A stretch of 23,960 nt of DNA from a virus, in IMG/VR virus record IMGVR_UViG_3300038301_000484, positions 1-23,960 of that record; one strand, 5' to 3'. The notes under the pieces were generated by a model. That model did not search any database, was not told the DNA's origin, and saw only the letters and a list, made by a program, of their open reading frames with translations. The position numbers and the translations under genes were made by a program. Below are positions 1 through 11,956 of the stretch, in pieces. Every line of letters starts with the position of its first letter. Position 1 is the stretch's first letter.

Positions 1-126
1 TGGGTGACCTTGACTGTTTCTAGCGTGTTCATTCTGTTTTTCCTTTGTTGGTATTTGTCGTATGAAGTGAAGTATTCACTCCATTCAATACGTTTGCATG
101 TCACGCCACACGCGTCAAGTTTATAA
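1..126 (+). CDS. Possible C-terminal fragment of a membrane protein (partial at left edge)
   Basis: The first reading frame is open from base 1 to a TAA at 124-126 and would give the last 41 residues of a protein. Residues 3 to 20 form a hydrophobic run (VSSVFILFFLCWYL in its centre) that could span a membrane, followed by a polar tail with several His and Ser. No start codon is visible because the frame runs off the window. Codon evidence is too short to be firm. It may be chance, since the next 900 bases are non-coding. Confidence 0.25.
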   Translation, partial: WVTLTVSSVFILFFLCWYLSYEVKYSLHSIRLHVTPHASSL

Positions 127-315
127 GTGAAACAAAGTGCTTTTTATTCTTCTTATTCTCACAAGCCATAACGGCAAAACTGGCGCCGTCTTTGCATAGC
201 ACTGATAGCAGTGCGGTACCGGCACGTTTAGTGCATGGGTGAAAGTTGGCACCTCACTTGCACAGGTGAACCCCAGCGAATTGTGCCTAGTCTAAATAGG
301 CCAGGAGTGATATTA

Positions 316-468
316 CAAATATCTGTTCAAGATATGAGAAGTCATTCAGATAATTGATGGTTCAAATTTTAGGTCAATATCTTGAAAGTCATTCATGAAT
401 TTGATCAATCAAATTTCTGATCAAGATCTCCAAAGTCGTTACAAATTTCTGAACAAGTCAAAGTTGGC
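316..468 (+). repeat. Four iteron-like direct repeats of about 33 bp
   Basis: Copies begin at 316, 363, 410 and 442. The shared core is CAAAT(T/A)TCTG-TCAAGAT followed by AAGTCATTCA. The first three are spaced exactly 47 bp apart, with 14-bp AT-rich spacers that themselves resemble each other (both contain TTGAT). The fourth follows after 32 bp and is shortened in the middle. Even spacing at 47 bp (about 4.5 helical turns) suggests protein binding sites, for example an origin, partition or packaging site. Confidence 0.65.
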
Positions 469-533
469 ATGGAGGTTGCAAGGCCCACATGTAGGCACCC
501 ACATGTAGGCAAGGGACGGTACCGGCGCTATTC

Positions 534-573
534 TTCAATCAAGCAGAAGGTGCGGGTTTGCGGTGGTGCGTTG
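534..573 (+). repeat. Degenerate copy of the 40-bp TTTGCGGTGA element
   Basis: It aligns without gaps to the better copies: TTCAA at the left end, TTTGCGGTGG starting at the same internal position (24). The AAACG block is altered to ATCA and the right end is not conserved. No gene start lies immediately downstream. Confidence 0.35.
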
Positions 574-610
574 CCGGTGTTGCCGGTGTTGCCGGTGTTG
601 ATTGCCGGTG
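571..610 (+). repeat. Tandem TTGCCGGTG repeat
   Basis: Three head-to-tail TTGCCGGTG units occupy 571-597 and a fourth lies at 602-610 after four extra bases. The unit contains GCCGGT, the reverse complement of the ACCGGC part of the neighbouring GGTACCGGC family, so the two repeats may be related. Confidence 0.7.
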
Positions 611-840
611 TTGATAATGCACCACACCAAAGAGAGCGGTACCGACTGTACTGTTGAGCAATACAATAGCGGTGGATAGTAAAGCAGAGCCGGTCAATAA
701 TAATAAGAACGGTACCGGCATGAAGAAGAAGACGCCGGGTCCGGCTTAGTGTAGCGGTGTACTGATGACAGCGGTACCGGCATGGAGGAGCGGTGCGTGT
801 GGAGCGGTACCGGCCTGTGCATACGGAACCGGCGCTTTAA

Positions 841-880
841 AGTAAACGAACCAAAGCCGCCAGTTTGCGGTGAGCCATGA
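841..880 (+). repeat. 40-bp AAACG-N15-TTTGCGGTGA element, copy 1
   Basis: It has TAAACG at positions 3-8 and TTTGCGGTGAGC at positions 24-35, the same spacing as the copies at 4063, 9336, 9386 and 9426. Unlike those at 4063 and 9426, it is not followed by a gene on the same strand. Confidence 0.6.
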
Positions 881-1063
881 AGTTGCCGGTGATGCCAACC
901 GTATTGTACTGGTTATCCATACAATAAAAATCCATTATACTGAAAAGAATGACCCGACCCCCATTTTCAAATAAACAATTCCATGCTATTTATAATTATA
1001 TTAACTTCGTAGAGTAAATATCTACATCGGTTAACATCCAAATAACATAACGGTACCGGCTAG

Positions 1064-1495
1064 TTATTCAGACTCAGCTTCCTTCAACGCATCAACCCAT
1101 GACACGGTCTGGATGGGACCACCATCTGCACCGCTTACCTCCATGGATGACTTCTTCCCCCAATGTTGTGGGAATGACCGTTCTAGGAACCATGCTGCTG
1201 CCCGCCAGTCAGAAGTAGCTTGTCGAGAGACCGTTACTACGTTCCGAGCTTCTACCTCTGTCCTTGCTTTCCTTACTTGAAGATAAAAGTTTAAGAACTT
1301 CCGCTCGCTTTTTGGTACACGCTTACCAGTCTCTTTCCTATCTTGCGCCTCTTCCCCGCGCGACATCCATGCGTGTATGGTAGATACTGAAACCCCAGCA
1401 TACTCGGCAGCGGTTTGCAGGAAGTTTCCTGCGGCAACAGCCTTGCAAACTTTGTCCGTTATTTCGTCGTTAAGTTTGGATTTTCTTCCGGTCAT
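1064..1495 (-). CDS. Terminase small-subunit-like DNA-binding protein
   Basis: The product is 143 residues. The N-terminal third has a helix-turn-helix (about residues 10-45: a KVCKAVAAGNFLQTAAEYAGVS-like helix followed by STIHAWMSRG). The rest is helical and ends in FLERSFPQHWGKK, a pattern common in phage small terminase subunits of the HTH type. Such proteins recognise the packaging site and recruit the large terminase. I chose the ATG at 1495 because AAAGGA lies about 9 bases upstream; a longer frame to 1570 has no such site. The large subunit is not in the window. The repeat-rich non-coding DNA just downstream could be its target. A transposase-type HTH protein is the main alternative. 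Confidence 0.7.
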   Translation of the reverse strand: MTGRKSKLNDEITDKVCKAVAAGNFLQTAAEYAGVSVSTIHAWMSRGEEAQDRKETGKRVPKSERKFLNFYLQVRKARTEVEARNVVTVSRQATSDWRAAAWFLERSFPQHWGKKSSMEVSGADGGPIQTVSWVDALKEAESE

Positions 1496-1541
1496 TTTAG
1501 GCCATCCTTTACATCTTCTTATTGCCCGCTGCGTCATTGAT

Positions 1542-1570
1542 ATGGTATTGCCTTTACACACAATTTGCAA
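1542..1570 (-). promoter_or_regulatory. Possible sigma70 promoter for the small-terminase-like gene
   Basis: On the minus strand TTGCAA (1570-1565) is followed after 17 bases by TACCAT (1547-1542), about 45 bases upstream of the chosen start. The -10 is weak, so this is tentative. Confidence 0.25.
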
Positions 1571-1587
1571 ACACGTAATGAGGCGGT

Positions 1588-1743
1588 ATGTTTAAAACCA
1601 TGTTCAACAATGTTTCGGTAGTGTCCCTAGCCTGTTTTGGTCTCTCTGCCGTGCCGGTGTTTTTGTTTGGTTTGTACCATTTCTTACACCAAATGCGGTT
1701 GTTTCTAGTCTTTATGGTCCGCTTTGGTGTGCGTTTTGGGTAG
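1588..1743 (+). CDS. Possible small two-helix membrane peptide (51 aa)
   Basis: The ATG at 1588 follows TGAGG with a four-base gap and opens a 51-residue frame ending TAG at 1741-1743. The peptide is strongly hydrophobic: a first segment near residues 8-30 (VSVVSLACFGLSAVPVFLFG) and a second at about 36-47 (RLFLVFMVRFG). Hydrophobic character and an RBS support it, but the frame is short and a minus-strand open frame (1554-1763) covers the same bases. No function can be assigned; phage holins and membrane toxins are often this size. Confidence 0.3.
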   Translation: MFKTMFNNVSVVSLACFGLSAVPVFLFGLYHFLHQMRLFLVFMVRFGVRFG

Positions 1744-2275
1744 GATTCTTTCCTGGTTCTCACTTGGAATCGCTATTAGGATTCTACTCTTTTAAGGTCC
1801 CTAGTCTAAAACGCCTTTAATGTCAAGCATATAGGTAACTACCTGTTTTCACTTACCTTTTAATGGTGCGTGGCATCCCATTGTGGTTTACAACTCAATC
1901 TGCTAACCTATTGGAACCTATTGGTAATCCTGGTGAATTCAGGACCCAATAGGCTGACGACCGGCCTCCCCTGTATCGCGTGGCTAGTCTGCTTGGCCAT
2001 TGCGCCAAGTAACCCTTTGAGGTGTCTGCTAGTGTTTCCTAGGCTAAAGGCTAGGTGGGCGGACCAGAGTACAGTCTGGCGCGTGGCGATTGAAAAGCCC
2101 AAACCCACCAATGGAGACACCCCGGCTGTAATACTGGGGCATGGCAATATTGGTTCTTTGACATTCTAAGGTGTAGAGACCGCTATGGTTGTTGTGCGTG
2201 TAGCAATTCACGTTGTTATGCACAAATTATCCATATCACTAGGTTGAGAACCCTAGGGCGGGCGTAACTTCTTTA
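1744..2275. other. Non-coding region with many local stem-loops
   Basis: No credible gene is seen; open frames at 1870-2169 (plus) and 1908-2147 (minus) lack RBSs and mutually overlap. The sequence is dense in stem-loops: CCTATTGG/CCAATAGG enclosing TCCTG/CAGGA (1917-1953), CTTGGC/GCCAAG (near 1990-2007), CCTAG/CTAGG, CCAGA/TCTGG inside GGTGGG/CCCACC, CCCCGG/CTGGGG, and CTAGG/CCTAG near 2240-2260. Together with folds at 2295-2422 and the terminator at 2496-2515 it could be a long structured RNA read on the plus strand. A perfect -35-like TTGACA lies at 2158, but its nearest -10-like TATGGT is 20 bases away. Confidence 0.4.
1907..1953. repeat. Nested inverted repeat with a duplicated arm
   Basis: CCTATTGG occurs twice (1907-1914 and 1917-1924) and its complement CCAATAGG once (1946-1953). 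Inside the second copy TCCTG (1928-1932) pairs with CAGGA (1940-1944) around a 7-base loop. The result is a 13-bp interrupted stem with a spare left arm that could exchange with the first. Confidence 0.6.
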
Positions 2276-2473
2276 TTACATGCAGCGTATAGCAATAGCA
2301 GATAGCAGCATAAGCGGTCGCGCCTGGCGAGAGTCAACAGTCTTGGGAAGCCCAGGACTACGGCGGCCGGGTGCCTTGAAATGCCCCATGACCTTAACGA
2401 CCGCCAGCATATCGTCTGCTATGTACCTGAATTCATAGACACGATAGAGCAGAAAAATAACGGAGTTATACAT
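2276..2473 (-). CDS. Small protein of unknown function (65 aa)
   Basis: The ATG at 2473 is preceded on the minus strand by AAAAAGGAGAAGAAGAAAAC, almost the same ribosome binding region as the plus-strand operon genes (AAACAAGGAGAAGAAA). That is the main support for a real gene. The N-terminus is hydrophobic (MYNSVIFLLYRVYEF), the middle basic (HFKAPGRRSPGLPK), with no known motif. It would be transcribed divergently from the 2579 gene across the hairpin at 2496-2509. The caveat is that the same bases form long nested RNA stems on the plus strand, so the region may be RNA rather than protein coding. Confidence 0.4.
   Translation of the reverse strand: MYNSVIFLLYRVYEFRYIADDMLAVVKVMGHFKAPGRRSPGLPKTVDSRQARPLMLLSAIAIRCM
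2295..2422 (+). ncRNA. Candidate folded RNA domain
   Basis: Three helices nest in order: ATAGCAGA 2295-2302 with TCTGCTAT 2415-2422 (8 bp), GCGGTCG 2314-2320 with CGACCGC 2398-2404 (7 bp), and hairpin GTCTTGGG 2340-2347 with CCCAGGAC 2351-2358 (8 bp including one G-U). TATCGT (2410-2415) can alternatively pair with ACGATA further 3'. A terminator at 2496-2515 would end a plus-strand transcript. It overlaps a possible minus-strand gene, so coding constraint is an alternative explanation. Confidence 0.35.
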
Positions 2474-2495
2474 GTTTTCTTCTTCTCCTTTTTAG

Positions 2496-2515
2496 CCCCC
2501 TAACGGGGGTTTTTT
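2496..2515 (+). terminator. Intrinsic terminator
   Basis: CCCCC (2496-2500), loop TAAC, GGGGG (2505-2509), then six T (2510-2515). It sits upstream of the 2579 gene, with only 63 bases between it and that start. Transcription into the left operon must therefore start in that gap, be regulated here by read-through, or come from an unrecognised promoter. CCCCC could pair with GGGG at 2516-2519 instead, which would break the terminator. Confidence 0.75.
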
Positions 2516-2556
2516 GGGGATAAAGGTCTTTGCTGGTTCGATTCCAGCGGTCCCCT
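2516..2556 (+). other. tRNA T-arm/acceptor-like hairpin (tRNA remnant, att site or tRNA mimic)
   Basis: GCTGG (2532-2536), loop TTCGATT (2537-2543) and CCAGC (2544-2548) form a canonical tRNA T-arm, followed directly by GGTCCCC (2549-2555) like a 3' acceptor strand. GGGGAT at 2516-2521 can pair with GTCCCC, closing a minihelix in which the D and anticodon arms are replaced by about ten bases. No full cloverleaf fits upstream because the terminator occupies that place, and there is no CCA. It may be a tRNA 3' end captured as a phage attachment core, a deleted tRNA gene, or a regulatory mimic in the leader of the 2579 gene. Confidence 0.55.
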
Positions 2557-2578
2557 ACTAAAACAAGGAGAAAAGAAC

Positions 2579-3160
2579 ATGACGGACGTAAAAGAACTAC
2601 TATCACCAGCCGGGTACCTGAGAGCCGCTATGCAAGTGGAATCAACCCCGCTTGAAAAGAAGCATCTCGAAATCCAAATAGGATTCAAGGACGGTGGTAG
2701 AATCGAGTTTAATCATCCCTATGTGCGTGATATCAAAGACGTTGTAGATTATGACCGGCAGGCAAAGTTTAATTTTGAGGCTGACTATACTGAGAAAGAC
2801 AGTATGCAGCGGTCATATGATAGATGCCTTTGGGATCTGGGCAACGCTATACTGCGGGCGACAAGTTATACCTGTCGCATCGAGGTATTCGATGACCTAA
2901 TGGCGTACTCGGGCGAAAGAGACTGGGAGCGGTTAGAGGATACTTTAGCCGCAGGTGTAGAGCCGGACCAAGTGTCTCGCATCTGGTATGTAGAATGGTC
3001 ACACAAGCGGTCAGACGGCAAAGTCTGGCAGTCTGATGGCCAATGGGATGATGATACGGGCAACGTATTTTACACCAAATTGGATGCTTTCAAATGGCTT
3101 GCCCTAAAGGCATTTAGCGGTCAAATCTGGGATGATAAATACAAATTGTCATTAAAATAA
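2579..3160 (+). CDS. Hypothetical protein, first gene of the left operon (193 aa)
   Basis: The start ATG follows AACAAGGAGAAAAGAAC, a strong binding site. The product is acidic and mixed alpha/beta in look, with many aromatic residues in the last third (WYVEWSHKRSDGKVWQSD, then FKWLALKAF). I see no catalytic motif, signal peptide or membrane segment, and recognise no family. It begins MTD, as do the next two genes, whose leaders and first codons are alike. That hints that leader and start were duplicated together. A terminator and the tRNA-like hairpin lie just upstream, so its expression may be the control point of the operon. Confidence 0.8.
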   Translation: MTDVKELLSPAGYLRAAMQVESTPLEKKHLEIQIGFKDGGRIEFNHPYVRDIKDVVDYDRQAKFNFEADYTEKDSMQRSYDRCLWDLGNAILRATSYTCRIEVFDDLMAYSGERDWERLEDTLAAGVEPDQVSRIWYVEWSHKRSDGKVWQSDGQWDDDTGNVFYTKLDAFKWLALKAFSGQIWDDKYKLSLK

Positions 3161-3166
3161 AATACT

Positions 3167-3226
3167 TAGAACACCATACTTTGGCCCCGGCTAGAGTATG
3201 GAATTCTACGTATATTTTGTGCGTAG
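3167..3226 (+). promoter_or_regulatory. Structured leader element, copy A
   Basis: TAGAA (3167-3171) pairs with TTCTA (3204-3208) and closes a long stem starting CCATACT (3174-3180)/AGTATGG (3195-3201) and continuing with wobble pairs to a GC-rich tip. CTACGTAT (3206-3213) pairs with GTGCGTAG (3219-3226), sharing CTA with the outer helix, so the two pairings compete. AAACAGGAGAAG and the start codon at 3245 follow within 20 bases. Confidence 0.7.
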
Positions 3227-3244
3227 TAAAACAGGAGAAGAGAC

Positions 3245-3637
3245 ATGACCGACAATAATATTGAGTTAATGGGCCAAGATTATCTAAACACCCTAGATCG
3301 GGTGATTGAGAAAATGGAGGACCCTGAGATTAACCGCTGGTGGTCTGGTAAGCGCAAGCTGAACGGTAAGACAGTGGAGGTTATCGAGCCACCACAGGGA
3401 CCAAAAGAGTCCGCAAGGTATGAGCGGGGAAATTCGGATGAAGGCATCCCAATGTCTACATTGCAAGCGCTTAAGTATGCGGAGCTATGTAGAAGGTACG
3501 GTGAGAAACCAGCCAGGGTAAAGATCGTACCACGGTGTGAAGCCAAGGCTCTTGCCAAATGGTTTGGGCCTCCAAAGCGGGGTAATCCTGGTCAGCAATA
3601 CCATAACATAACAACGGATGGTGAAAGCCAAACATAA
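3245..3637 (+). CDS. Hypothetical protein (130 aa)
   Basis: It starts at ATG 3245 after AAACAGGAGAAGAGAC. The protein has an acidic N-terminus (MTDNNIELMGQDYLNTLDRVIEKMEDPEI), a basic middle (RWWSGKRKLNGK) and a C-terminal stretch with ARVKIVPRCEAKALAKWFGPPKRGNP. It contains no recognisable motif or membrane segment. It lies between two structured leader elements. The shared MTD start with its neighbours points to duplicated 5' regions, although the bodies of the proteins are not alike. Confidence 0.75.
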   Translation: MTDNNIELMGQDYLNTLDRVIEKMEDPEINRWWSGKRKLNGKTVEVIEPPQGPKESARYERGNSDEGIPMSTLQALKYAELCRRYGEKPARVKIVPRCEAKALAKWFGPPKRGNPGQQYHNITTDGESQT

Positions 3638-3644
3638 TTGTACC

Positions 3645-3706
3645 TAGAACACCATGCCCTAGCGGATCGTTAGGGTATGGGATTCTGTGTGCAACGGAGC
3701 ATACAG
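3645..3706 (+). promoter_or_regulatory. Structured leader element, copy B
   Basis: TAGAA (3645-3649) faces TTCTG (3683-3687), pairing four bases. The main stem CCATGCCCTA/TAGGGTATGG is 10 bp with one G-U and a 9-base loop. The second hairpin CTGTGTGC (3685-3692), loop AACGGA, GCATACAG (3699-3706) has 8 bp. The same AACGGA loop on a different 8-bp stem is found at 4382-4403, so pairing is conserved while sequence is not. Confidence 0.75.
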
Positions 3707-3724
3707 TAAAACAGGAGAAGAAAC

Positions 3725-3991
3725 ATGACCGACAAGTCTGTACAAGTTATCGCATCATATAAGACACGCGGGTCAAAGTATAAGATCAAAGTGATCAAAT
3801 GCCTTGACGGTTCCTACGCAGTAAGAACCTACATGCGGGGAAGGTTGCAAAGCTCATCAAATGGGCATGATTATGAGTCCGCGTTTGGATACGCGGAGAA
3901 TATGATCAACTGTGACCGGATCATTCATAACCGCACGTTCTATAGTGAATGCCCGTCAGTCCACGACGGTGATATGTACACCGCGTACTAA
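3725..3991 (+). CDS. Hypothetical protein (88 aa)
   Basis: ATG 3725 follows AAACAGGAGAAGAAAC. The small basic protein looks like a compact beta-rich fold (VQVIASYKTRGSKYKIKVIK, then GSYAVRTYMRGRLQ) with a more acidic C-terminus. I recognise no motif or family. An apparent terminator follows the gene at 4037-4062, so this may end the first transcription segment of the left operon. Confidence 0.75.
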   Translation: MTDKSVQVIASYKTRGSKYKIKVIKCLDGSYAVRTYMRGRLQSSSNGHDYESAFGYAENMINCDRIIHNRTFYSECPSVHDGDMYTAY

Positions 3992-4036
3992 AGCCGGGCA
4001 GAAATAAAGACCGGCTAAATAAAGACCGCAACTGTG

Positions 4037-4062
4037 ACCGGCCCATGCGTGGGCTGGTTTTC
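4037..4062 (+). terminator. Probable intrinsic terminator
   Basis: ACCGGCCCA (4037-4045), loop TGCG, TGGGCTGGT (4050-4058; one G-U pair), then a TTTTCTT tail. The T tract is short. Just upstream lie two AAATAAAGACCG direct repeats and an AGCCGG/CCGGCT hairpin, and the 40-bp element follows at once, so this spot looks like a boundary between transcription units. Confidence 0.55.
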
Positions 4063-4102
4063 TTCAAACGTCAACTCACCTCTGTTTTGCGGTGAGCTTT
4101 GA
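4063..4102 (+). repeat. 40-bp AAACG-N15-TTTGCGGTGA element, copy 2
   Basis: TTCAAACG at positions 1-8 and TTTGCGGTGAGCTTTGA at 24-40. The start codon of the next gene lies 17 bases downstream. Here CTCACC and GGTGAG can also pair, and TCAAA with TTTGA, but these pairings are not kept in all copies. Bound DNA or a promoter is therefore more likely than an RNA fold. Confidence 0.65.
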
Positions 4103-4118
4103 CTTTTATGGGAGCAAT

Positions 4119-4334
4119 ATGAGCTACGGACAGATAAAAACACTGGCAGATTATAGAACCGTCATTGGAAACAGTGGCGTCTATGAATGGGAATGGCAGG
4201 GAAATGCAAACCTAGACGGTTTCATATCCTATGCCTACAACTATTCACACAACTTGGATACCGATGAGGGCTTTAACGAGTCCGTATCTGACTATCTAGT
4301 CCATGTTGGAGAGAACCCGAAAGATTACTTTTAA
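4119..4334 (+). CDS. Hypothetical protein (71 aa)
   Basis: I place the start at ATG 4119 after GGGAG with a four-base gap. A GTG at 4092 would extend the frame by nine residues, but it lies inside the conserved 40-bp element, so its codons probably reflect that site. The protein is acidic and rich in Tyr and Asn (YEWEWQGNANLDGF, YAYNYSHNLDTDEGF) and ends HVGENPKDYF. It resembles small single-domain phage proteins of unknown role, and no motif is recognised. It is the only gene in the first half of the left operon with this kind of leader rather than the two-hairpin leader. Confidence 0.65.
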   Translation: MSYGQIKTLADYRTVIGNSGVYEWEWQGNANLDGFISYAYNYSHNLDTDEGFNESVSDYLVHVGENPKDYF

Positions 4335-4344
4335 GAGTTATGCC

Positions 4345-4403
4345 TAGATCCCGGCACTCAAGTTCGCTTGAGTGTCGCAGTCTACGCACAACGGAGTGTG
4401 TAG
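4345..4403 (+). promoter_or_regulatory. Structured leader element, copy C
   Basis: TAGA (4345-4348) pairs with TCTA (4381-4384). The main stem CGGCACTCAAG (4352-4362)/CTTGAGTGTCG (4367-4377) is 11 bp with a TTCG loop. The second hairpin CTACGCAC (4382-4389), loop AACGGA, GTGTGTAG (4396-4403) has 8 bp and overlaps the outer helix by CTA. AAACAAGGAGAAGAAA and ATG 4424 follow. Confidence 0.75.
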
Positions 4404-4423
4404 TAAACAAGGAGAAGAAAATC

Positions 4424-5698
4424 ATGACAAACACTCAACCGAACCAGAACCTACCTAAAGGCCGAATCGGAACAGTCCTAATGTGGGGACGATCAAGGCA
4501 ATCAGTCTCGATTGAACCGGCTCTCAGTAAGCGAGAGTTTGATATCCACATGGGTCCCGAGTATGCCAAAAAGGTAAAAGAACCAGTTAAGGCACTTACC
4601 GCCTTTCGTCGCACAATGAACGCGGCAAAGACGGGGGTCCCCACAGGTTTTTTCTGGCGCAAACTAGACGAAGACGGGAGCTTTCTGAAGTTTTGCTATG
4701 CCCTTGAAACCAAGGACATTAAAACCGATTACTTCAGAGCTGACGGTACCTTAATCCTGACCTTTGATAAAAAGACAGGAATCTGGTCCGCTAGTGACGA
4801 GTCGCACTTTCAGACAACCCGAATCAGGGGAATCTATAAGAGCAAGTACACGTTCCTGACCTCGAAAGACTATGCGGATATCATAAAGTCCCTAATCGGA
4901 GAAACGAAAGGATTTTCGATTAACAATGCCTGCTATTTTATTCCGGCAGGTGAGGATGAATGGGTTCCGAGCCTGAGAATGGCATTGGAACATACTGGTA
5001 TCCCGGTTACATGGATGCCTATTGCGTCTGATACAGACCAAGTAGAGCAATACCAGCAACCGGCTAAACAGTCTTTGCTCGATGAAATCGAAATCCTCCG
5101 AGAGGAGGCTGAAGAATTCAAGACCAAAGATCCGCTGGATGTCACACGCGAACCGACGTTTGAGAGAAGAATCGAAAAGGCAATCAAGCTTAAAGATAAA
5201 GCCCGATTGTTTGAAGATCTTCTCAAGACAAAGTTGGACGATGTGGTGTCCGCGTCTGATGAGCTTCAAGCTGAGTTTGAAAAGCTAAAGGGCAACCCGG
5301 CGCTAGACAAACAAGAGCTAAAGCTTGCCCGCGCTAAACGTGACGCTAAAAACGCACTAAAGCGGGTCGAGGCTCTAAAGAAAAAGAGAAAGGTCATCAT
5401 TGATACCCCCGAGGGTCGAGCATTTAACATACTGCAAGACCTATCAGATATGAATGATGCCAACCGATCCTTTTCGCGATGCCAGGAAATACTTGAGGAC
5501 CCGAACTGTGTCCTTGATGATCTTTCTGAATTAGAGGAAAAGAAATTGTCCGAAAGTGTAACGAGGCTAATGCTCGCCTCTGAAGCGCTTTCAAAGATTA
5601 CCGACAAGTCAGGCAAGAAAGAAAAGCGGGACGCAACAAGCGCATTCAAAAAGGCGCAAGTTGGAGTCTACCGTGGATCGATGAAGCTGATGAGTTAG
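4424..5698 (+). CDS. Coiled-coil protein of the MoxR/VWA gene set (424 aa)
   Basis: The first half (about residues 1-215) looks like a folded alpha/beta domain (LTAFRRTMNAAKTGVPTGFFW, then GFSINNACYFIPAGEDEWVP). The second half (about 225-415) is highly charged and helical (LLDEIEILREEAEEFK, LARAKRDAKNALKRVEALKK) and should form coiled coils. The start at ATG 4424 has AAACAAGGAGAAGAAA; an upstream ATG at 4340 lies inside the structured leader and is rejected. I recognise no named family. It is followed by a RavA-like ATPase and a ViaA-like VWA protein with the same type of leader, so it may be their substrate, adaptor or scaffold. Confidence 0.8.
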   Translation: MTNTQPNQNLPKGRIGTVLMWGRSRQSVSIEPALSKREFDIHMGPEYAKKVKEPVKALTAFRRTMNAAKTGVPTGFFWRKLDEDGSFLKFCYALETKDIKTDYFRADGTLILTFDKKTGIWSASDESHFQTTRIRGIYKSKYTFLTSKDYADIIKSLIGETKGFSINNACYFIPAGEDEWVPSLRMALEHTGIPVTWMPIASDTDQVEQYQQPAKQSLLDEIEILREEAEEFKTKDPLDVTREPTFERRIEKAIKLKDKARLFEDLLKTKLDDVVSASDELQAEFEKLKGNPALDKQELKLARAKRDAKNALKRVEALKKKRKVIIDTPEGRAFNILQDLSDMNDANRSFSRCQEILEDPNCVLDDLSELEEKKLSESVTRLMLASEALSKITDKSGKKEKRDATSAFKKAQVGVYRGSMKLMS

Positions 5699-5702
5699 TT
5701 CT

Positions 5703-5784
5703 ACATAGAAATACCATGCCTTACCGAAAGGTTGGGCATGGCCTTCTATGTGGCACGTCGCCCATGGAAAACGACCGAGAGGTC
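5703..5784 (+). promoter_or_regulatory. Structured leader element, copy D (variant second hairpin)
   Basis: ACATAGAA (5703-5710) pairs with TTCTATGT (5744-5751), 8 bp. Inside, CCATGCC (5714-5720) pairs with GGCATGG (5735-5741) and the tip is ACC-GAAA-GGT, a GNRA tetraloop. The second hairpin is GACC-GAGA-GGTC (5773-5784), again a GNRA loop. AAAACAAGGAGAAG and ATG 5805 follow. Confidence 0.75.
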
Positions 5785-5804
5785 AAAACAAGGAGAAGAA
5801 AAAC

Positions 5805-7016
5805 ATGTCAAATCTAAAAGTGGTCCGAAACGACAAGAAAATCAAAGAGCTGGATTCCGCTGTGGAAAAAGTAAAAGCATTTGAGGACGGTTTGAATCAA
5901 ATCGTACTCGAACGCAAAGACGAAGTATCCACGTCGGTGACAGCACTCATAGCAGGATTGAATGTGCTATTCCTAGGCCCTCCGGGGACTGCCAAGTCTT
6001 ACTTGGTTAAGGCAATATCGCAAGCATTGCGGTTTTCATATTTTGAAATCGTAATGAATCCTACTACCGAGCCTAATGAATTGCTTGGCGGCTACGACTT
6101 AACGGAACTTGCAAAGGGAAAATATTCCCGAATGCAGGAAGGAATGATCACCGAAGCAGAGTTGGTATTTTTGGATGAAGTATTCAAAAGCAACTCCGCT
6201 TGTCTTAACCTCTTGCTTCCGATCTTAAACGAGAGGAAGTACAAGGTTGGGAATAAGATGACCGATCTTCCAGTTGTATCTATCTTTGGTGCCTCCAATG
6301 AGCTTCCGGCTAAGGACGAGGGACTCGGAGCTATGTACGACAGATGGCAGGTGAAGCATTGGGTAACACCAATGGACCGAGCTGATAATGTCAAGAAGGT
6401 AATGTGGGGTAAAACCCCGTCACCTGAAGATGTCTTCACTGGGAAGCAGCCCGCCTTGAGCATGGAAGATATTCAAGCCATTCGATCCGCTGCTGAGTTG
6501 GTTACGATCAGCACAGAAGTGGAGAGTATTACCGTTAAGATCAGAGATAGACTCTTTAAGGAAACCCATACGCTTTTGTCCGACAGGAAAATGGTGCAAT
6601 GGGCGAAGTACCTTAAAGCGGATGCCGCCAAGAAGGGAAAGACTTCTGTCTCCCCCGAAGAGCTTTTCAGCTCGGCTTGTCTACTTTGGGATGACCCATC
6701 TTACCTATCAACCGTCAAAGAGGTTGTTGGTGAGATTGCCTGCCCGTGGGTTCTTGAGATCGAACGGGTACAAAAGATCATTTCCAATCAAGAAATTGAA
6801 TTAGAGAAAATGATCGACGACGACGGTACGTCAAGTTCGACTCATACCGAGCGTCAGGCTTATATCAATACGATTGCCGTAAATCTATCCATGGAATTGG
6901 ATAGGATTGAGGACATCCGAAACAAATATAAGGGAAGATCGTCCGACCTTCTTGATGACCTTGAAACAAGAATCAAGGAAATCAAGGATGAGGCACTGTC
7001 CGCCATTCTGAAGTAG
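5805..7016 (+). CDS. MoxR-family AAA+ ATPase, RavA-like
   Basis: The 403-residue product carries Walker A GPPGTAKS (58-65), Walker B VFLDE (121-125) followed by the MoxR-typical NLLLPILNERK (135-145), sensor 1 ASN (163-165) and an arginine-finger candidate in YDR (178-180). EVFKS after Walker B and ASNELP match the RavA subgroup of MoxR, which works with VWA proteins as a chaperone-like remodelling pair. The C-terminal 100 residues are helical and charged. It is shorter than E. coli RavA (about 500 residues), and I see no LARA-like region. It lies directly before the VWA gene, as ravA precedes viaA. Its target is unknown. Confidence 0.9.
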   Translation: MSNLKVVRNDKKIKELDSAVEKVKAFEDGLNQIVLERKDEVSTSVTALIAGLNVLFLGPPGTAKSYLVKAISQALRFSYFEIVMNPTTEPNELLGGYDLTELAKGKYSRMQEGMITEAELVFLDEVFKSNSACLNLLLPILNERKYKVGNKMTDLPVVSIFGASNELPAKDEGLGAMYDRWQVKHWVTPMDRADNVKKVMWGKTPSPEDVFTGKQPALSMEDIQAIRSAAELVTISTEVESITVKIRDRLFKETHTLLSDRKMVQWAKYLKADAAKKGKTSVSPEELFSSACLLWDDPSYLSTVKEVVGEIACPWVLEIERVQKIISNQEIELEKMIDDDGTSSSTHTERQAYINTIAVNLSMELDRIEDIRNKYKGRSSDLLDDLETRIKEIKDEALSAILK

Positions 7017-7026
7017 GAATACTGCG

Positions 7027-7105
7027 CAGAACCACTACACCTCACCGTCATGGTGGGGTGTAGCATTCTGGGTAGCATTATGCACCAGAGAACGACCTAA
7101 CGGTC
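7027..7105 (+). promoter_or_regulatory. Structured leader element, copy E (variant second hairpin)
   Basis: CAGAA (7027-7031) pairs with TTCTG (7066-7070). The main stem CTACACC (7035-7041)/GGTGTAG (7057-7063) continues through a T-G pair into CACC (7043-7046)/GGTG (7052-7055), loop GTCAT. A second hairpin GACC-TAAC-GGTC (7094-7105) matches copy D in stem sequence but not loop. The binding site AAGGAGAAG and ATG 7126 follow. Confidence 0.75.
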
Positions 7106-7125
7106 CTAAAACAAGGAGAAGAAAC

Positions 7126-8520
7126 ATGTACGAATTACCGCCAATATCAAATATCTGGTTTGATAGATCAAACCTAAAAGATGTGTCGGATCTTTACTCA
7201 GATAGGATTTCTGAGTGGAAAGATTTTGTACCGCAACTTTTTGGCAAGCTGTTGTTTAACTCTCAAGTCACAGAGAAGCCGGTTGAAGAACAAAGCGAAT
7301 GGGTTAGAAACGCATTCAAAATGTTAGAAAGCAACCCGGACTGGAGGAGCATTGCAAGTGCATCCAGCCATCATCCCGATCTTGCCGTAGAAAATACAGG
7401 CAAGCTATCTCGGATTGTGGCCTCTTCAATGGGGCTTAAAAACCTAGAGCCTAGAAATAGTGAGAAGCCGGAGGAGATAGATAAGCTTATAAAGAAACTT
7501 AAGTCCGAAGGAAAGGACGTTAAGGATCTAAAGAAAAAGCTTAGATCTGCCCGCGCTAAAAGATCAAAGGCTATCATGGAAGCAGAGTCAAACAATCGGT
7601 TGGCTAAGAAGATGGGCATTCTGGCTGAATCGTCCTCGGACAAAAAAGAAGCCATAGCGACACTGCGATCTTTTGGTTTGGTCGGTGACAAAAACAACCT
7701 AAAAGAATCGATTCCTAAAGACCTCATAGAATTGCTATGCGGGAACAAGGAGTTGATGAACCTCATAAAGAGTCTCGGTGGACTGAGAGAAGCCAGGGCA
7801 AAAAATGAGTTAATGTCACCATCAAAGCGGGGTGTATCTATCCATGGAGTAAAGAGCGGAGATAAAGTAGAAGATCTACTTTCCTCTGAACTTGTGAAGC
7901 TAACGGACCCATTGCTAAGTTTAGACTTGCTTGACCGTTTGCAGAACAAAAAGGCTCTGGTTTGGAATAAGAAGGGAAAGTCTCCGAAAGAAAATGGAGA
8001 CATCATTATGATGGTCGATAAGAGCGGATCAATGGGTTGCCCTGTTGATTACTCGGACGAATCCCTAACCATAAACCATTGGGCAAGCTCGGTTGCAGCA
8101 GCAACTGTCTTGAAAGCTGTGAAAAGCAACCGATGTGTCGAGGTCATATTCTTTAATGGTCAGACAGAAACAGTCAGAGTTAACGGGACTCAAGACTTGG
8201 AAGCATTTTTCAATGCTTTATCTTCTGATCCAACCGGAGGAACCAACATGGGTTACGCCATGGAGGAAGCCAAAAAGGCAATGCCGGAACTTAAAAAGCC
8301 GCAAGCCCTAATGGTTTCAGACATGCAGATACCGCCTGGCTTTGAGGTCGAACCGAAGCTGGATTGCCGCCTTGAACTTGTCTTAGTTTCCGATGTGCAG
8401 CATGACAAGGAGCGAATCAAGGAGCAAATCGGAGCAAATGACGTCATGGTTATTGATCCCACCACAATCGGGACAGACCATCGCCATTCGCTTGCCAGCA
8501 ATATAGTTGAGCGGGTTTAG
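7126..8520 (+). CDS. VWA-domain protein, ViaA-like, partner of the MoxR ATPase
   Basis: The product has 464 residues. The N-terminal 290 are helical and very charged (for example a KKLKSEGKDVKDLKKKL-type stretch at about 123-139). The C-terminal VWA domain starts near 291 with all MIDAS parts: DKSGS (298-302), T373 in GGTN and D399 in SDMQ. The long helical N-terminus with a C-terminal VWA matches E. coli ViaA. MIDAS-containing VWA proteins bind metal and work with a MoxR ATPase to remodel protein complexes. The start ATG 7126 has AAACAAGGAGAAGAAAC. What this pair acts on in the phage cycle is not shown by the sequence. Confidence 0.88.
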   Translation: MYELPPISNIWFDRSNLKDVSDLYSDRISEWKDFVPQLFGKLLFNSQVTEKPVEEQSEWVRNAFKMLESNPDWRSIASASSHHPDLAVENTGKLSRIVASSMGLKNLEPRNSEKPEEIDKLIKKLKSEGKDVKDLKKKLRSARAKRSKAIMEAESNNRLAKKMGILAESSSDKKEAIATLRSFGLVGDKNNLKESIPKDLIELLCGNKELMNLIKSLGGLREARAKNELMSPSKRGVSIHGVKSGDKVEDLLSSELVKLTDPLLSLDLLDRLQNKKALVWNKKGKSPKENGDIIMMVDKSGSMGCPVDYSDESLTINHWASSVAAATVLKAVKSNRCVEVIFFNGQTETVRVNGTQDLEAFFNALSSDPTGGTNMGYAMEEAKKAMPELKKPQALMVSDMQIPPGFEVEPKLDCRLELVLVSDVQHDKERIKEQIGANDVMVIDPTTIGTDHRHSLASNIVERV

Positions 8521-8528
8521 GTTTTACT

Positions 8529-8587
8529 TAGACCATGCCACTGCATCCTAACGGGTACAGTGGCAGAATCTACGTAATACCGCGTAG
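8529..8587 (+). promoter_or_regulatory. Structured leader element, copy F
   Basis: TAGA (8529-8532) pairs with TCTA (8569-8572). The main stem TGCCACTG/CAGTGGCA (8536-8543, 8558-8565) carries an inner CC-TAAC-GG tip. The second hairpin CTACGT (8570-8575), loop AATACC, GCGTAG (8582-8587) overlaps the outer helix by CTA, as in copies A and C. Confidence 0.7.
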
Positions 8588-8606
8588 AAAAAACAAGGAG
8601 AAGAAA

Positions 8607-8831
8607 ATGTTTATGATTGCCTACGGAGAATGTATTGCTTGCAAAAGAGACATTCATTTTAACCCGGTTCATGTTCCATCCATTTACGTGGAGGGAATCC
8701 GTGAGCCGCTCTGTGTCAATTGCTTCGACCTATGGAACGAAGTACACCGAGTATCAAAAGACCTGGAGCCAGTCAGCCTTCACCCCCGAGCATATGTGGG
8801 TGAACCAGAACAACTAGACACCGAGTGCTAA
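8607..8831 (+). CDS. Small zinc-ribbon-like protein (74 aa)
   Basis: Start ATG 8607 follows AAACAAGGAGAAGAAA. Two CxxC pairs, CIAC (near residue 10) and CVNC (near 45), are spaced as in a treble-clef or zinc-ribbon site. FNPVHVPSIYVEG lies between them and DLWNEVHR after them, so the protein probably binds one zinc ion. Such small phage proteins may bind nucleic acid or host proteins, but nothing more specific is visible. It is the last gene with the two-hairpin leader; the next follows after 19 bases with a plain binding site. Confidence 0.75.
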   Translation: MFMIAYGECIACKRDIHFNPVHVPSIYVEGIREPLCVNCFDLWNEVHRVSKDLEPVSLHPRAYVGEPEQLDTEC

Positions 8832-8850
8832 ACCAAAGCAGGAGACAAAC

Positions 8851-9198
8851 ATGGAAAACAAGAAAGAAAACACCGTAACATTTAGAAGCCAGCTAATATC
8901 TCACGACTGGAGCTATCAACGATCCGACGACCACAGATACTGGTCCCGAGGAGAAAGACAAAGAAACGAGATAAACGCTACGTACTACCGTCTTAAATGT
9001 CCATTCTCCCTGGGGGATCTAGTGAAGTGGCGGTTTAAGATGATAGTTGAAGACTTCACAGAAGTTGAGCCGGACTGCTGGTTCCGACTGCCTAAGAAGT
9101 ACAAGCACATGGCACCAGAAAGACGGGATGGACTCATAGAGAGATCCCGGTTCGATGAGATAGAGCGGTGGATGGAAGAGAATGATACCGCCGAATAA
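8851..9198 (+). CDS. Hypothetical protein (115 aa)
   Basis: ATG 8851 follows AAGCAGGAGACAAAC. The protein is rich in Arg, Trp and acidic residues (HDWSYQRSDDHRYWSRGERQR, split by charge; later KWRFKMIVEDFTEVEPDCWFRLPKK). It ends in a helical acidic tail, RFDEIERWMEENDTAE. No motif or family is recognised. It appears to close this part of the operon, because a hairpin-rich non-coding stretch of nearly 300 bases with three 40-bp elements follows. Confidence 0.75.
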   Translation: MENKKENTVTFRSQLISHDWSYQRSDDHRYWSRGERQRNEINATYYRLKCPFSLGDLVKWRFKMIVEDFTEVEPDCWFRLPKKYKHMAPERRDGLIERSRFDEIERWMEENDTAE

Positions 9199-9335
9199 AA
9201 AGTAAGAAGAGAACCGCAATAACTATACGTGACCGGCAGTGTTAGCACCGGCATTGGCCAACCGAGCTTGGCTCGCGGTTCCGAGAAAAATAAGCACCGG
9301 AAAACTGTGCCGGTGAATCTCGCGAAAAGAAATTC
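9199..9335. other. Hairpin-rich spacer with ACCGGC motifs
   Basis: ACCGGCA occurs twice as a direct repeat (near 9232 and 9247). AACCGAGC (9260-9267) can fold against GCTC-GCGGTT (9271-9280). CACCGG (9295-9300) pairs with CCGGTG (9310-9315) around nine bases. None has a T tract, so these are not clear terminators. The ACCGGC motif also marks the non-coding regions near the other copies of the 40-bp element. Confidence 0.5.
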
Positions 9336-9375
9336 TTCAAACGTATCGGTGCATCGGATTTGCGGTGAGCTTTGA
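9336..9375 (+). repeat. 40-bp AAACG-N15-TTTGCGGTGA element, copy 3
   Basis: TTCAAACG and TTTGCGGTGAGCTTTGA are identical to the copy at 4063, while the 15-base middle differs. It starts 50 bp before the next copy. Confidence 0.65.
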
Positions 9376-9385
9376 CAAATAAATT

Positions 9386-9425
9386 TTCAAACGCAAAGAG
9401 GTGCTAGATTTGCGGTGACATTTGA
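9386..9425 (+). repeat. 40-bp AAACG-N15-TTTGCGGTGA element, copy 4
   Basis: TTCAAACG, then TTTGCGGTGACATTTGA. The two bases after GGTGA change from GC to CA as in the next copy. It abuts copy 5 with no gap. Confidence 0.65.
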
Positions 9426-9465
9426 GGTAAACGTAAAAGGGTGCCTCTTTTGCGGTGACATTTGG
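9426..9465 (+). repeat. 40-bp AAACG-N15-TTTGCGGTGA element, copy 5
   Basis: TAAACG at 3-8 and TTTGCGGTGACATTTGG at 24-40, directly following copy 4. The start codon of the next gene lies 28 bases downstream. All copies keep 15 bases between the two conserved blocks. Confidence 0.65.
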
Positions 9466-9493
9466 CATTTCAAAAACAAAGATGGAGGATGAG

Positions 9494-10084
9494 ATGAGAA
9501 GAGAAGAAAAAGAAGGATGGGCGTATTGTCGAGACACAGACATCGCGGTCGTCGTAGGGGTTGAATCGGTAGTTGCAGATTACATGAAAGACTTCGTATG
9601 CCCGAATGCCTGGGAGGACGAAGCAAGTGAAGAGGGTTCAATATCCCTGAAGGACTTAAACACAGATGAGCTAATGCAGGATGTCTGGGAGTCTCCAACC
9701 GCAGACGAAAAGCTAAAGGTGTTAACCATTGCGTTCAGAATGACAGACAAGAATGTCCTCCAGTGGGGGAAGAACTCTGTCTACAGGCCAAGAGAGAATG
9801 TCGTTGAGGTTGTATATTCTGACGCTGTAAGGATAGTTGAGCTAATAGATAACGAACTGCATGAGATCTATTCCTCTAGGTTCAGTATGAGGCATGGAGA
9901 CATATCGCCAGACGAAAGAAAGTGTGAGCTTCTAACGCTAAGAAAGTCGATAGTTGACAAAATCGATATGTCACGGTTAAATATAAACGCATACTCAAGA
10001 GATCTGATGGCGTATTCGACGCGCAAGGAGGGGGTAAATGATACCGAAGCCGGGAAACATGCAAATGTACATGGAGAACCATAG
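9494..10084 (+). CDS. Hypothetical protein (196 aa)
   Basis: GGAGG at 9484-9488 lies five bases before the ATG at 9494, which I prefer over in-frame ATGs further upstream (9482 and earlier, overlapping the 40-bp element). The protein is acidic and mostly helical (SLKDLNTDELMQDVWESPTADEKLK; VRIVELIDNELHEIYSS). It looks soluble, and I recognise no motif. Its 3' end overlaps the next gene by 47 bases in another frame, so the two are probably translationally coupled. It is the first gene after the triple 40-bp element, so it could be driven by it. Confidence 0.75.
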   Translation: MRREEKEGWAYCRDTDIAVVVGVESVVADYMKDFVCPNAWEDEASEEGSISLKDLNTDELMQDVWESPTADEKLKVLTIAFRMTDKNVLQWGKNSVYRPRENVVEVVYSDAVRIVELIDNELHEIYSSRFSMRHGDISPDERKCELLTLRKSIVDKIDMSRLNINAYSRDLMAYSTRKEGVNDTEAGKHANVHGEP

Positions 10085-10280
10085 AAAGGTTCAGGAAATT
10101 TTCAATGCAAGAAAGAGAACGCGGGATGCGATGTTTCTTGAAGGGGTTGGGGCAGACCGTATTGCTGTCTTTGATCAACAAACAATGGTCATTCTCGCAG
10201 AGGCGAAAGCGAGATACCCTAGTCCGTTTTTTGGGCAACAAAAGAAAAAACCTGGAGGAAACAGTGGAATACTCAAGTGA
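10038..10280 (+). CDS. Hypothetical protein (80 aa)
   Basis: The start at ATG 10038 has a near-perfect AAGGAGG six or more bases upstream, inside the end of the previous gene. The protein is basic and helical at the N-terminus (MIPKPGNMQMYMENHRKVQEIF), with a Lys/Gly-rich tail (GQQKKKPGGNSG). No family is recognised. Both of its ends overlap neighbours, which is typical of compact phage operons, and the strong binding site supports it despite the overlap. Confidence 0.65.
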   Translation: MIPKPGNMQMYMENHRKVQEIFNARKRTRDAMFLEGVGADRIAVFDQQTMVILAEAKARYPSPFFGQQKKKPGGNSGILK

Positions 10281-10578
10281 AGAATCAGAAGAGAATAGAC
10301 CTGAAGAGGCAGCGCCAGAGCCTACTGGAGACACCCTGGTGTCCTGTGTTAACTCTTTTGCTGGCGAGGACTTTAAGCACGTTGGTCAGCTTGCCGTAAA
10401 AATATCGTTTCGCGCAGCAGCAAATGAAATCAAGGCAGACAGTGGCGTTTGTGTATCCCTTGTGCCTTCAGGTGAGAGGTGGCAGGTTAAAATAGATGAT
10501 GACCTGTCCGTGGAGTTTTCCAAGTATCTCGATGCCGCAAGGGCATTTATTGACGGATATGCTAAACATAGAGGCTAG
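10264..10578 (+). CDS. Hypothetical protein (104 aa)
   Basis: I place the start at GTG 10264, five bases after GGAGGA. An ATG at 10105 in the same frame would overlap the whole previous gene and gives a low-complexity basic start. The N-terminus is very acidic (EYSSEESEENRPEEAAPEP), followed by a possible small folded domain (VSLVPSGERWQVKIDDDLSVEFSKY, split). No known motif is seen. The gene ends just inside the next one. Confidence 0.65.
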   Translation: MEYSSEESEENRPEEAAPEPTGDTLVSCVNSFAGEDFKHVGQLAVKISFRAAANEIKADSGVCVSLVPSGERWQVKIDDDLSVEFSKYLDAARAFIDGYAKHRG

Positions 10579-10603
10579 GGGGGAGAGGCACAGGCAATCT
10601 GAA

Positions 10604-10804
10604 ATGTGTGAATTTTGTCTCGACTATGGTTGGTATTACGTTCAAACAGAAAGAAGAAGGCTTGTTCGTGATTCTTTCGGCAAGAATAAAATGAAGCACA
10701 TAAGGGAAGAGATCCGAACCCCCTGCATTTGCAGAAAAGGTGGAGAATGGGTCAAGGCAAAGCATCTTGGCTACAATGAGATAGCCGACATGGAAGACGA
10801 TTGA
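10604..10804 (+). CDS. Small zinc-ribbon-like protein (66 aa)
   Basis: CEFC at residues 2-5 and CIC near residue 46 (TPCICRKGG) can form a CxxC...CxC zinc site. This is a frequent pattern in small phage proteins next to replication genes. Aromatic residues (DYGWYYV) follow the first pair. The start is uncertain: ATG 10604 begins right at the zinc motif but its purine-rich GGGGGGAGAGG lies about 15 bases away. ATG 10559 in the same frame would add 15 residues. It is the last gene of the left operon before the small-RNA-like unit. Confidence 0.65.
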   Translation: MCEFCLDYGWYYVQTERRRLVRDSFGKNKMKHIREEIRTPCICRKGGEWVKAKHLGYNEIADMEDD

Positions 10805-10825
10805 TAAAATAAATCGCCTCCACTG

Positions 10826-10854
10826 TTGACTCATGCCAGCACGTATTGTAGACT
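10826..10854 (+). promoter_or_regulatory. Sigma70-like promoter
   Basis: TTGACT (10826-10831), 17 bases, TAGACT (10849-10854). The last ten spacer bases, GCACGTATTG, recur at 13151-13160 in the divergent promoter region. A perfect inverted repeat GTTAC-TAGC-GTAAC (10861-10874) lies where transcription would begin and could be an operator. Confidence 0.5.
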
Positions 10855-10860
10855 GTACAT

Positions 10861-10946
10861 GTTACTAGCGTAACAAGGCCGTTTTTGTCGGCGGCCCTTC
10901 TCGTCTTGTTTTAGTCCCCACCCCTCACAGGGTGGGGATTTTTTTT
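10861..10946 (+). ncRNA. Candidate small RNA of about 85 nt
   Basis: A promoter at 10826-10854 and a strong terminator at 10916-10946 bracket a short stretch with no gene. It would fold as GTTAC/GTAAC (loop TAGC), GGCCG/CGGCC in 10877-10897, a single-stranded T-rich linker and the terminator hairpin. Its 3' end meets the 3' end of the minus-strand operon, so little antisense overlap is expected. Read-out needs RNA data. Confidence 0.4.
10916..10946 (+). terminator. Strong intrinsic terminator
   Basis: CCCCACCC (10916-10923), loop CTCACA, GGGTGGGG (10930-10937), A, then eight T (10939-10946). It ends plus-strand transcription before the convergent minus-strand operon. There is no T tract on the other strand, so it is not a good terminator for that operon. 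Confidence 0.85.
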
Positions 10947-11184
10947 ACCTCTCTGGACATTCGTCGTAGTGAGGTATCCCATCAGACGTGTATGGCGACA
11001 TCTTATTTTTCTCAGACGGCACCCACCAGATGGACCTGGAGCAGAATCGGCATTCGTCTTTCTCTGCTCCTATGTGTTCATAGAGTGAGGATATCTTCGC
11101 CCTGTAAAAGACTGCTGCCCTCTTCTTTGTTATATTTACAACTTCCCTTATCTGCTCTTTTTCTCTGTCTTCTTTCTTAGTCAC
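10945..11184 (-). CDS. Small zinc-binding-like protein (79 aa)
   Basis: The start is a GTG at 11184 with GGAGG five bases upstream, inside the end of the helicase-loader gene (8-base overlap). The N-terminal half is a charged helix (KKEDREKEQIREVVNITKKR). The C-terminal half carries CRFC, then HYDEC, a CxxC...HxxxC set that could bind zinc. It is the last gene of the minus-strand replication operon. The family is not recognised. Confidence 0.7.
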   Translation of the reverse strand: MTKKEDREKEQIREVVNITKKRAAVFYRAKISSLYEHIGAEKDECRFCSRSIWWVPSEKNKMSPYTSDGIPHYDECPER

Positions 11185-11956
11185 GGTTGCCTCCCTTGGC
11201 CCTTAGAGACCTTCCTTTGCATTCAGCCCAGCCACTTCCACCACTGTCTTTGTGGTGAAGCATTCTATCCAGCATATCGTTCCCATAGGATTCAAAGAAC
11301 TGCTGCTTGTTGGACCTTGTTGTCAGAATCGTACCTCTGCCTTGATCATGTCGCTCAGTTGCTATCATCGAAATAACCCTTATCGGGTTGTTCATGTCAC
11401 CAGCCTTTGTCAGGCTTGCAATTTCGTCAAACACCACCACGCCTGGACAATGAACGAGATCCTTTATTGCGTAGTCCTCGCCCTCCACCTTCCACGGGGC
11501 AATCATCGACCATTCAGATCTGGATAAAAACCTTCCCCTTGTCACCCATGCGGCCCAGCAAGAAGAAACTGTCTTGCCTAAACCGTTGTGTCCTGATAGA
11601 CAAAGGAGGCCATGCTTTGGCGCAATCACGTACCTGGAGACAATCTTTGCTGAGTCAAGGTTGTCTCCTTTTTTTGTCAATGCTGGCTCCTGATTGTTCC
11701 ACTGCAAGCCCAGTATCTCTGCCGTAACCTTTGGAACGCCAACCCTCGCCACCTCTCTTTCATACTTGTCCTTTACACCCATCTCCTCGTCCCTGTACTG
11801 AGCATCCACAAAAACCTGCTCCTGCCTCATCTCCTCACAGCATGATGGACACATGCACCCATCTGTGCCGATAATGAAGTCAAATGCAAATGGAACCACA
11901 CCTTCGCATCTGACACACTCAGCATCTTTTATGAGATTATTAAACTCAATTCCCAT
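11177..11956 (-). CDS. DnaC/IstB-like helicase loader ATPase
   Basis: The 259-residue product has an N-terminal zinc-ribbon-like part (CVRC at 14-17, CMCPSCC at 34-40). An AAA+ domain follows with Walker A GHNGLGKT (122-129), Walker B VVVFDE (173-178), sensor 1 TTRSN (212-216) and an arginine in DRM (230-232). This is the pattern of DnaC-type loaders, which place the replicative DnaB helicase at an origin. No helicase gene is in the window, so it may load the host enzyme, as lambda P does. ATG 11956 is chosen because GGAGG lies seven bases before it; the ATG nearer to the site would be too close. It follows the initiator gene that contains a probable origin. Confidence 0.85.
   Translation of the reverse strand: MGIEFNNLIKDAECVRCEGVVPFAFDFIIGTDGCMCPSCCEEMRQEQVFVDAQYRDEEMGVKDKYEREVARVGVPKVTAEILGLQWNNQEPALTKKGDNLDSAKIVSRYVIAPKHGLLCLSGHNGLGKTVSSCWAAWVTRGRFLSRSEWSMIAPWKVEGEDYAIKDLVHCPGVVVFDEIASLTKAGDMNNPIRVISMIATERHDQGRGTILTTRSNKQQFFESYGNDMLDRMLHHKDSGGSGWAECKGRSLRAKGGNRD

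Follow-up and report, generated by a model that had tools for sequence, protein, structure and literature searches.

The question raised by this locus is why six genes of one phage operon are each preceded by a folded element of common shape, whose stem sequences differ from copy to copy. The window, that is, the whole stretch of DNA analysed here, is a 23,960-base virus fragment from IMG/VR (IMGVR_UViG_3300038301_000484). It belongs to a tailed phage that encodes a small terminase, RecE/YqaJ exonuclease, RecT, Holliday junction resolvase and amidase (PHROGs), and no near relative of it was present in the phage collection searched. The operon (2579-9198) comprises ORF193, ORF130, ORF88, ORF71, the DUF6744 gene, a MoxR-type AAA ATPase, a VWA protein, ORF74 and ORF115.

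The initial annotation had placed two-hairpin leaders before six of these genes, and all of them (E1-E6) are present essentially where claimed, over a total span of 3162-8588 (Table 1), preceding ORF130, ORF88, the DUF6744 gene, MoxR, VWA and ORF74, respectively. An element occurs at six of the eight junctions from 3161 to 8850; junctions 4119 and 8851, which neighbour element-bearing ones, carry none. The core of each element begins 0-5 nt past the upstream stop codon, and the ATG lies ~19-22 nt beyond the last hairpin, a near-constant distance with nearly constant AAAACARGGAGAAGAAAC in between. A common tail before the ATG had been proposed, which reads AAACAAGGAGAAGAAA in E3-E6 but AAACAGGAGAAGARA in E1 and E2. 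Exact matches between any two copies reach 9-17 nt at most, and these longest ones all fall in the ribosome site. An extra GACC/GGTC hairpin is confined to E4 and E5, being absent from the other four copies.

Table 1. Coordinates of the parts of the six intergenic elements in the window
Feature	Position	Strand	Remark
E1 core long hairpin (state I)	3162..3213	+	1 nt past ORF193 stop
E1 alternative hairpin P2, CUACGUAUAUUUUGUGCGUAG	3206..3226	+	
E1 Shine-Dalgarno AAAACAGGAGAAGAGAC and ATG of ORF130	3228..3247	+	
E2 core long hairpin	3638..3694	+	immediately past ORF130 stop
E2 P2, CUGUGUGC-AACGGA-GCAUACAG	3685..3706	+	
E2 AAAACAGGAGAAGAAAC and ATG of ORF88	3708..3727	+	
E3 core long hairpin	4340..4389	+	UUCG tetraloop
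E3 P2, CUACGCAC-AACGGA-GUGUGUAG	4382..4403	+	
E3 AAACAAGGAGAAGAAAATC and ATG of DUF6744 gene	4405..4426	+	
E4 core long hairpin	5700..5754	+	lower helix 10 bp, mismatch position paired
E4 P2, UUCUAUG(U)GGC-ACGUC-GCCCAUGGAA	5744..5769	+	
E4 third hairpin, GACC-GAGA-GGUC	5773..5784	+	ahead of Shine-Dalgarno
E4 AAAACAAGGAGAAGAAAAAC and ATG of MoxR-type AAA ATPase	5785..5807	+	
E5 core long hairpin	7021..7076	+	
E5 P2, UUCUGGGUA-GCAUUA-UGC(A)CCAGAG	7066..7090	+	
E5 third hairpin, GACC-UAAC-GGUC	7094..7105	+	
E5 AAAACAAGGAGAAGAAAC and ATG of VWA-domain protein	7108..7128	+	
E6 core long hairpin	8522..8579	+	1 nt past VWA stop; orthologue L154:1159-1208
E6 P2, UCUACGU-AAUACC-GCGUAGA	8569..8588	+	CUACGUAAUACCGCGUAG same in L154
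E6 AAAACAAGGAGAAGAAA and ATG of ORF74	8590..8609	+	

Two mutually exclusive helices on one strand

The core of every element is one long imperfect hairpin of ~20-24 pairs in gene sense. Its base is an outer helix (3-6 bp), separated by a 1x1 mismatch, which is paired in E4, from a second helix of 4-5 bp (UAGAA/UUCUA type). Above this, beyond a 2x2 to 3x3 internal loop, stands the apical stem of 11-13 bp, which has one mismatch inside it in E4 and E6 and is closed by a loop of 3-5 nt. The closing helix recognised in the initial annotation is present, but it is longer than described, being built of outer helix, 1x1 mismatch and inner helix; the stem pairs quoted there are correct. The fold z-scores of the cores range from -4.1 to -6.1, a stability equalled by no more than 1 in 200 shuffles. 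When the cores were aligned with MAFFT, 96.0% of the cells were paired and 13 of 21 pairs had double-sided changes. The covariation score of this alignment (0.632) was compared with that of shuffled alignments (0.304 +/- 0.042), none of 500 shuffles reached the observed values, and pairing fell to 26-41% when the register was slid. Covariation is measured among six paralogous copies of one genome, with shuffles and register slides as controls.

The middle strand of the element, strand b (UUCUA.GUA), has two possible partners: strand a, just past the upstream stop, with which it closes the core, and strand c, before the Shine-Dalgarno, with which it forms the hairpin P2. In none of the six copies does it pair with a and c both in full. 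Both helices of the two-hairpin layout proposed initially were therefore found, but the closing helix and the second hairpin are mutually exclusive, as they have the strand UUCUA.GUA in common; the earlier description lacked this form of P2 in E4 (UUCUAUG(U)GGC/GCCCAUGGAA) and E5 (UUCUGG..CCAGAG). In each copy the native strand c gives a stronger P2 than its shuffled versions do (p 0.0015-0.017), and the alignment of P2, from which one bulged base each of E4 and E5 was taken out by hand, is 93.8% paired, with a covariation score reached by none of 500 shuffles. Blocking the first 12 or 15 nt past the stop in the folding, which mimics the footprint of a terminating ribosome, led to the formation of P2 in all six copies. 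The two states, I and II, lie 0.3-1.1 kcal/mol apart in E1-E4 and E6, and 3.1 kcal/mol apart in E5; some equality of energy is to be expected of two partners that fit one strand, so this balance alone is not proof of a switch. Neither fold sequesters the Shine-Dalgarno, and where partial pairing of it is predicted, the pairing bases belong to coding sequence or linker and not to the conserved helices.

The excess of G.U over A.C pairs on the sense strand (21 to 2, a count partly biased by the choice of the fold on that strand) indicates an RNA of the gene strand. The sense strand folds better than the antisense strand in all six copies of P2 and in five of the six cores. The exception is the core of E6, whose antisense folds better both in the window and in the related contig L154 described below. 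A paired A-G-A/U-C-U is invariant in all six copies. No unpaired motif is conserved across them, as the sequences of the apical, internal and P2 loops all vary.

Two familiar classes of leader RNA do not fit. Intrinsic terminators were dismissed because no U-tract follows the stems in any copy; in a loose sense-strand terminator scan only the stem of E2 passes, with the tail GATTCTGTGT. A riboswitch is argued against by the lack of a conserved unpaired ligand-binding core, loops and internal loops differing between copies.

Occurrence of the element and its orthologue in a related phage

As the initial annotation had proposed, a covariance model (R1) was built from the six elements. In the window R1 finds exactly E1-E6, on the gene strand and at 54-64 bits, and the next independent site scores at most 11.4 bits. 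The earlier view that the elements belong to no named leader or riboswitch family agrees with the Rfam search (4227 models, permissive E-value limits), which gave no match at the six places and only weak, unrelated matches elsewhere; our literature searches did not find such an RNA family described. Among 83 unrelated viral contigs (752 kb, chosen by element DNA patterns) R1 had no matches at E <= 1, and three matches from the DNA-pattern search were discarded as false, lying inside a coding gene. MoxR and VWA, each scanned singly against viral contigs, revealed no relative, the MoxR alignment search led to 18 distant phages, all without the element, and neither the resolvase nor the whole stretch returned anything when searched against phages and genomes. 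The DUF6744 gene, MoxR ATPase and VWA protein form a module within the phage operon (4424-8520), and MoxR and VWA-like neighbours are also carried by distant phages.

One relative, the 9,153-base contig L154, was found by an exonuclease scan, and further alignment scans yielded none besides it. L154 is syntenic with the window from VWA to SSB, with protein identities of 53% for the exonuclease, 49% for VWA and 82% for the resolvase. As this contig starts inside VWA, the comparison covers E6 only and not E1-E5. R1 detects a single copy in L154 (53.4 bits), located directly after the VWA stop and representing the orthologue of E6. The E6 leader is 91.5% identical between the two phages, compared with 64.6% for VWA coding DNA and 62.2% for ORF115; strands a and b, P2 and the stem base are identical, and the apical tip is changed yet still pairs (UUCG). 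Copies that have diverged within one genome, set against an orthologue nearly frozen between genomes, make an unusual contrast, for which the two phages compared allow either an additional constraint on the sequence or recent exchange of this short segment.

The selection on RNA structure postulated initially is supported by compensatory change among the copies, by the preference for the sense strand and by an orthologue conserved beyond its flanking genes. ORF74 (8607-8831), a small protein with two CxxC pairs that adjoins E6, is missing in L154 (1209-1241), where the E6 orthologue consequently serves the ORF115 homologue. This presence and absence represents an insertion or deletion at the boundary of the element.

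Other repeats and noncoding stretches of the window were also recorded. In the leader of the first operon gene (2516-2560) a perfect tRNA T-arm, GCTGGTTCGATTCCAGC, precedes an acceptor-like GGTCCCC able to pair with GGGGAT upstream. ARAGORN calls no tRNA there, and the tRNA-like 29-mer at 2532-2560 was absent as a host att site from the genome contigs searched; the leader is possibly a tRNA remnant or an att core. Upstream of it, ~0.9 kb (1571-2497) is devoid of convincing genes and is predicted to fold strongly as RNA (e.g., -31.9 kcal/mol at 2317); Rfam has no match within this stretch, which might be a large noncoding RNA. Noncoding DNA beside the small terminase gene (215-1058) carries seven dispersed GGTACCG motifs, mostly within CGGTACCGGC. 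A second intergenic repeat family, TCAAACG..TTTGCGGTGA.(C/A)TTTGA, occurs at 4064-4102, 9337-9375, 9387-9425 and 9427-9465 and also at 864 (5 matches versus 0.43 expected from shuffles), as well as in L154 (1705-1770). Four to five iteron-like palindromes, TGTAGATGTCTAC, lie inside the replication-initiator gene (12622-12705), at the same position as in L154 (4445-4549), and likely mark the replication origin.

Proposed transcript processing and competing explanations

The roles suggested initially were a shared translation control target, a protected 5' end made by processing, and a binding site for a phage protein. Of these, processing with a protected 5' end agrees best with the anatomy of the elements; the case for a shared protein or translation target loses strength, since no loop or internal-loop sequence is conserved and the Shine-Dalgarno is free in both folds. 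We favour, tentatively and short of calling it probable, the reading that the elements are intercistronic modules of mRNA processing and end protection resembling the RNase III sites of T7. The gene order suggests that the whole operon is transcribed into one RNA, in which the long imperfect hairpin (strands a and b and the apical stem) would offer a double-strand target to host RNase III or a like nuclease. A cut at the internal loop, on its 3' side, would release strand b from strand a. The upstream message would then end in a flush hairpin of 11-13 bp blocking 3' exonucleases, and strands b and c would refold to P2 at 2-4 nt from the new 5' end, where P2 may shield the downstream mRNA just before an open A/G-rich ribosome site. 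Strand a would be occupied by a ribosome that terminates at the adjacent stop upstream, and such a ribosome might postpone the choice between the two folds or shift it towards one of them. When a cut just 3' of the apical stem was simulated, the upstream product ended in a flush hairpin (~-16 to -21 kcal/mol) and the downstream product began with P2 after 2-4 unpaired nt, in all six copies.

A tetraloop on a 12 bp stem is enough for single-strand cutting by RNase III, an enzyme that has no strong sequence consensus and for which shape counts more than sequence; cutting at R1.1 of T7 has been linked to maturation and protection (PMC8708148). Five RNase III sites are found in the T7 early transcript (PMC4858673). 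The differing loop sequences of E1-E6 are more in line with an enzyme that reads shape than with a riboswitch or with a repressor that reads sequence. The T7 sites (R0.3, R0.5, R1, R1.1, R1.3, R3.8) are likewise irregular intergenic hairpins of a polycistronic transcript, with an apical stem of 9-13 bp and an internal loop, followed by a ribosome site and repeated along the operon. The same folding program, applied to T7 at what we take to be the positions of the R sites, gave apical stems of 9-12 bp between genes. Like a T7-type site, the elements lie between cistrons (at six junctions) and have a stem of at least ~12 bp with an internal loop (an apical stem of 11-13 bp plus lower helices, in all six). 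Unlike the T7 sites, their lower strand has a second partner with which it forms a 5' hairpin, and nearly all of the stem sequence varies. R1 had no match in T7 1-12000, so that the resemblance is one of analogy, not of homology in sequence or structure. Hairpins at the 5' end can stabilise bacterial mRNAs, and the 5' stem-loops of the ompA and papA type share with P2 the form of a short hairpin near the 5' end (here a proposed one), upstream of the ribosome site (PMC3997798), whereas P2, which shares a strand with the long hairpin, would not appear until that hairpin had been cut or melted. Several observations speak against processing: the identity of the E6 orthologue exceeds what a nuclease site read by shape only would need, barring a recent exchange of the segment; in both phages it is the antisense strand of the E6 core that folds better; and two junctions of the operon manage without an element.

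The main rival, which we regard as possible but doubtful, is a bistable regulatory switch, in which upstream termination or a phage factor would pick the long hairpin or P2 and so tune downstream expression without cleavage. In its favour, strand b pairs about equally with a or c, both helices are supported by covariation, and strand a is no more than 15 nt from the stop codon, where a terminating ribosome would be expected to cover it. In attenuators and riboswitches, too, two partners of nearly the same energy compete for one strand, but the elements differ from them in having no ligand core, terminator, sequestered Shine-Dalgarno or Rfam match. With the Shine-Dalgarno free in both folds and no U-tract, no output of such a switch is visible in the RNA.

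It is rather unlikely that an RNA-binding protein encoded by the phage co-regulates the six genes through a shared site, an operator of the RegA or coat-protein kind. The same element ahead of six genes, the invariant paired A-G-A/U-C-U and the strong conservation of the E6 leader between phages would agree with it, but the apical, internal and P2 loops hold no sequence common to all copies, and the small proteins of the operon have no match among known RNA-binding families. We also consider it unlikely that the elements are structural insulators or stability hairpins which, without specific cleavage, guard the 3' ends of decaying transcripts and isolate ribosome sites. Such a role would account for stable hairpins right after stop codons and for the spacing of the last hairpin from the ATG, but it leaves unexplained both the recurring mismatch and internal loop and the two partners of strand b in all six copies.

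An element acting at the DNA level, for instance a recombination site resembling integron attC or a linker at gene boundaries that serves the exchange of modules, is very improbable: the position after stop codons, the structure kept under varying sequence and the absence from L154 of ORF74, exactly beside E6, are compatible with it, but all six copies lie in gene sense, P2 folds better in that sense throughout, the G.U excess (with its partial bias from the choice of fold) points the same way, and the ends read from the sequence are of a TAC..GTA type, variable between copies, instead of the GTTRRRY / RYYYAAC of attC. Antitermination elements acting on RNA polymerase are hardly credible: put of HK022 is also a two-hairpin RNA in a phage transcript, but the elements differ from it in position and number, repeating before six genes and not near a promoter, and R1, a model of the element and not of put, has no match in HK022 26000-40000.

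Taking the processing reading further, E1-E6 may possibly represent an undescribed class of intergenic phage RNA, although we would call this wider proposal uncertain. In such RNAs one strand would serve two balanced, exclusive helices, and cutting or termination would turn a processing hairpin into a protective 5' hairpin; a diverged copy per gene would give individually capped messages without recombination between repeats. What is new in comparison with known intercistronic processing and stability hairpins is the refolding of a shared strand. Six diverged copies in one genome provide covariation without many relatives, so that a class absent from Rfam can be defined from a single operon. 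If the processing model is true, one cut per element would yield separate messages from a polycistronic phage RNA with both ends protected, and the element would be a usable genetic part for operon design.
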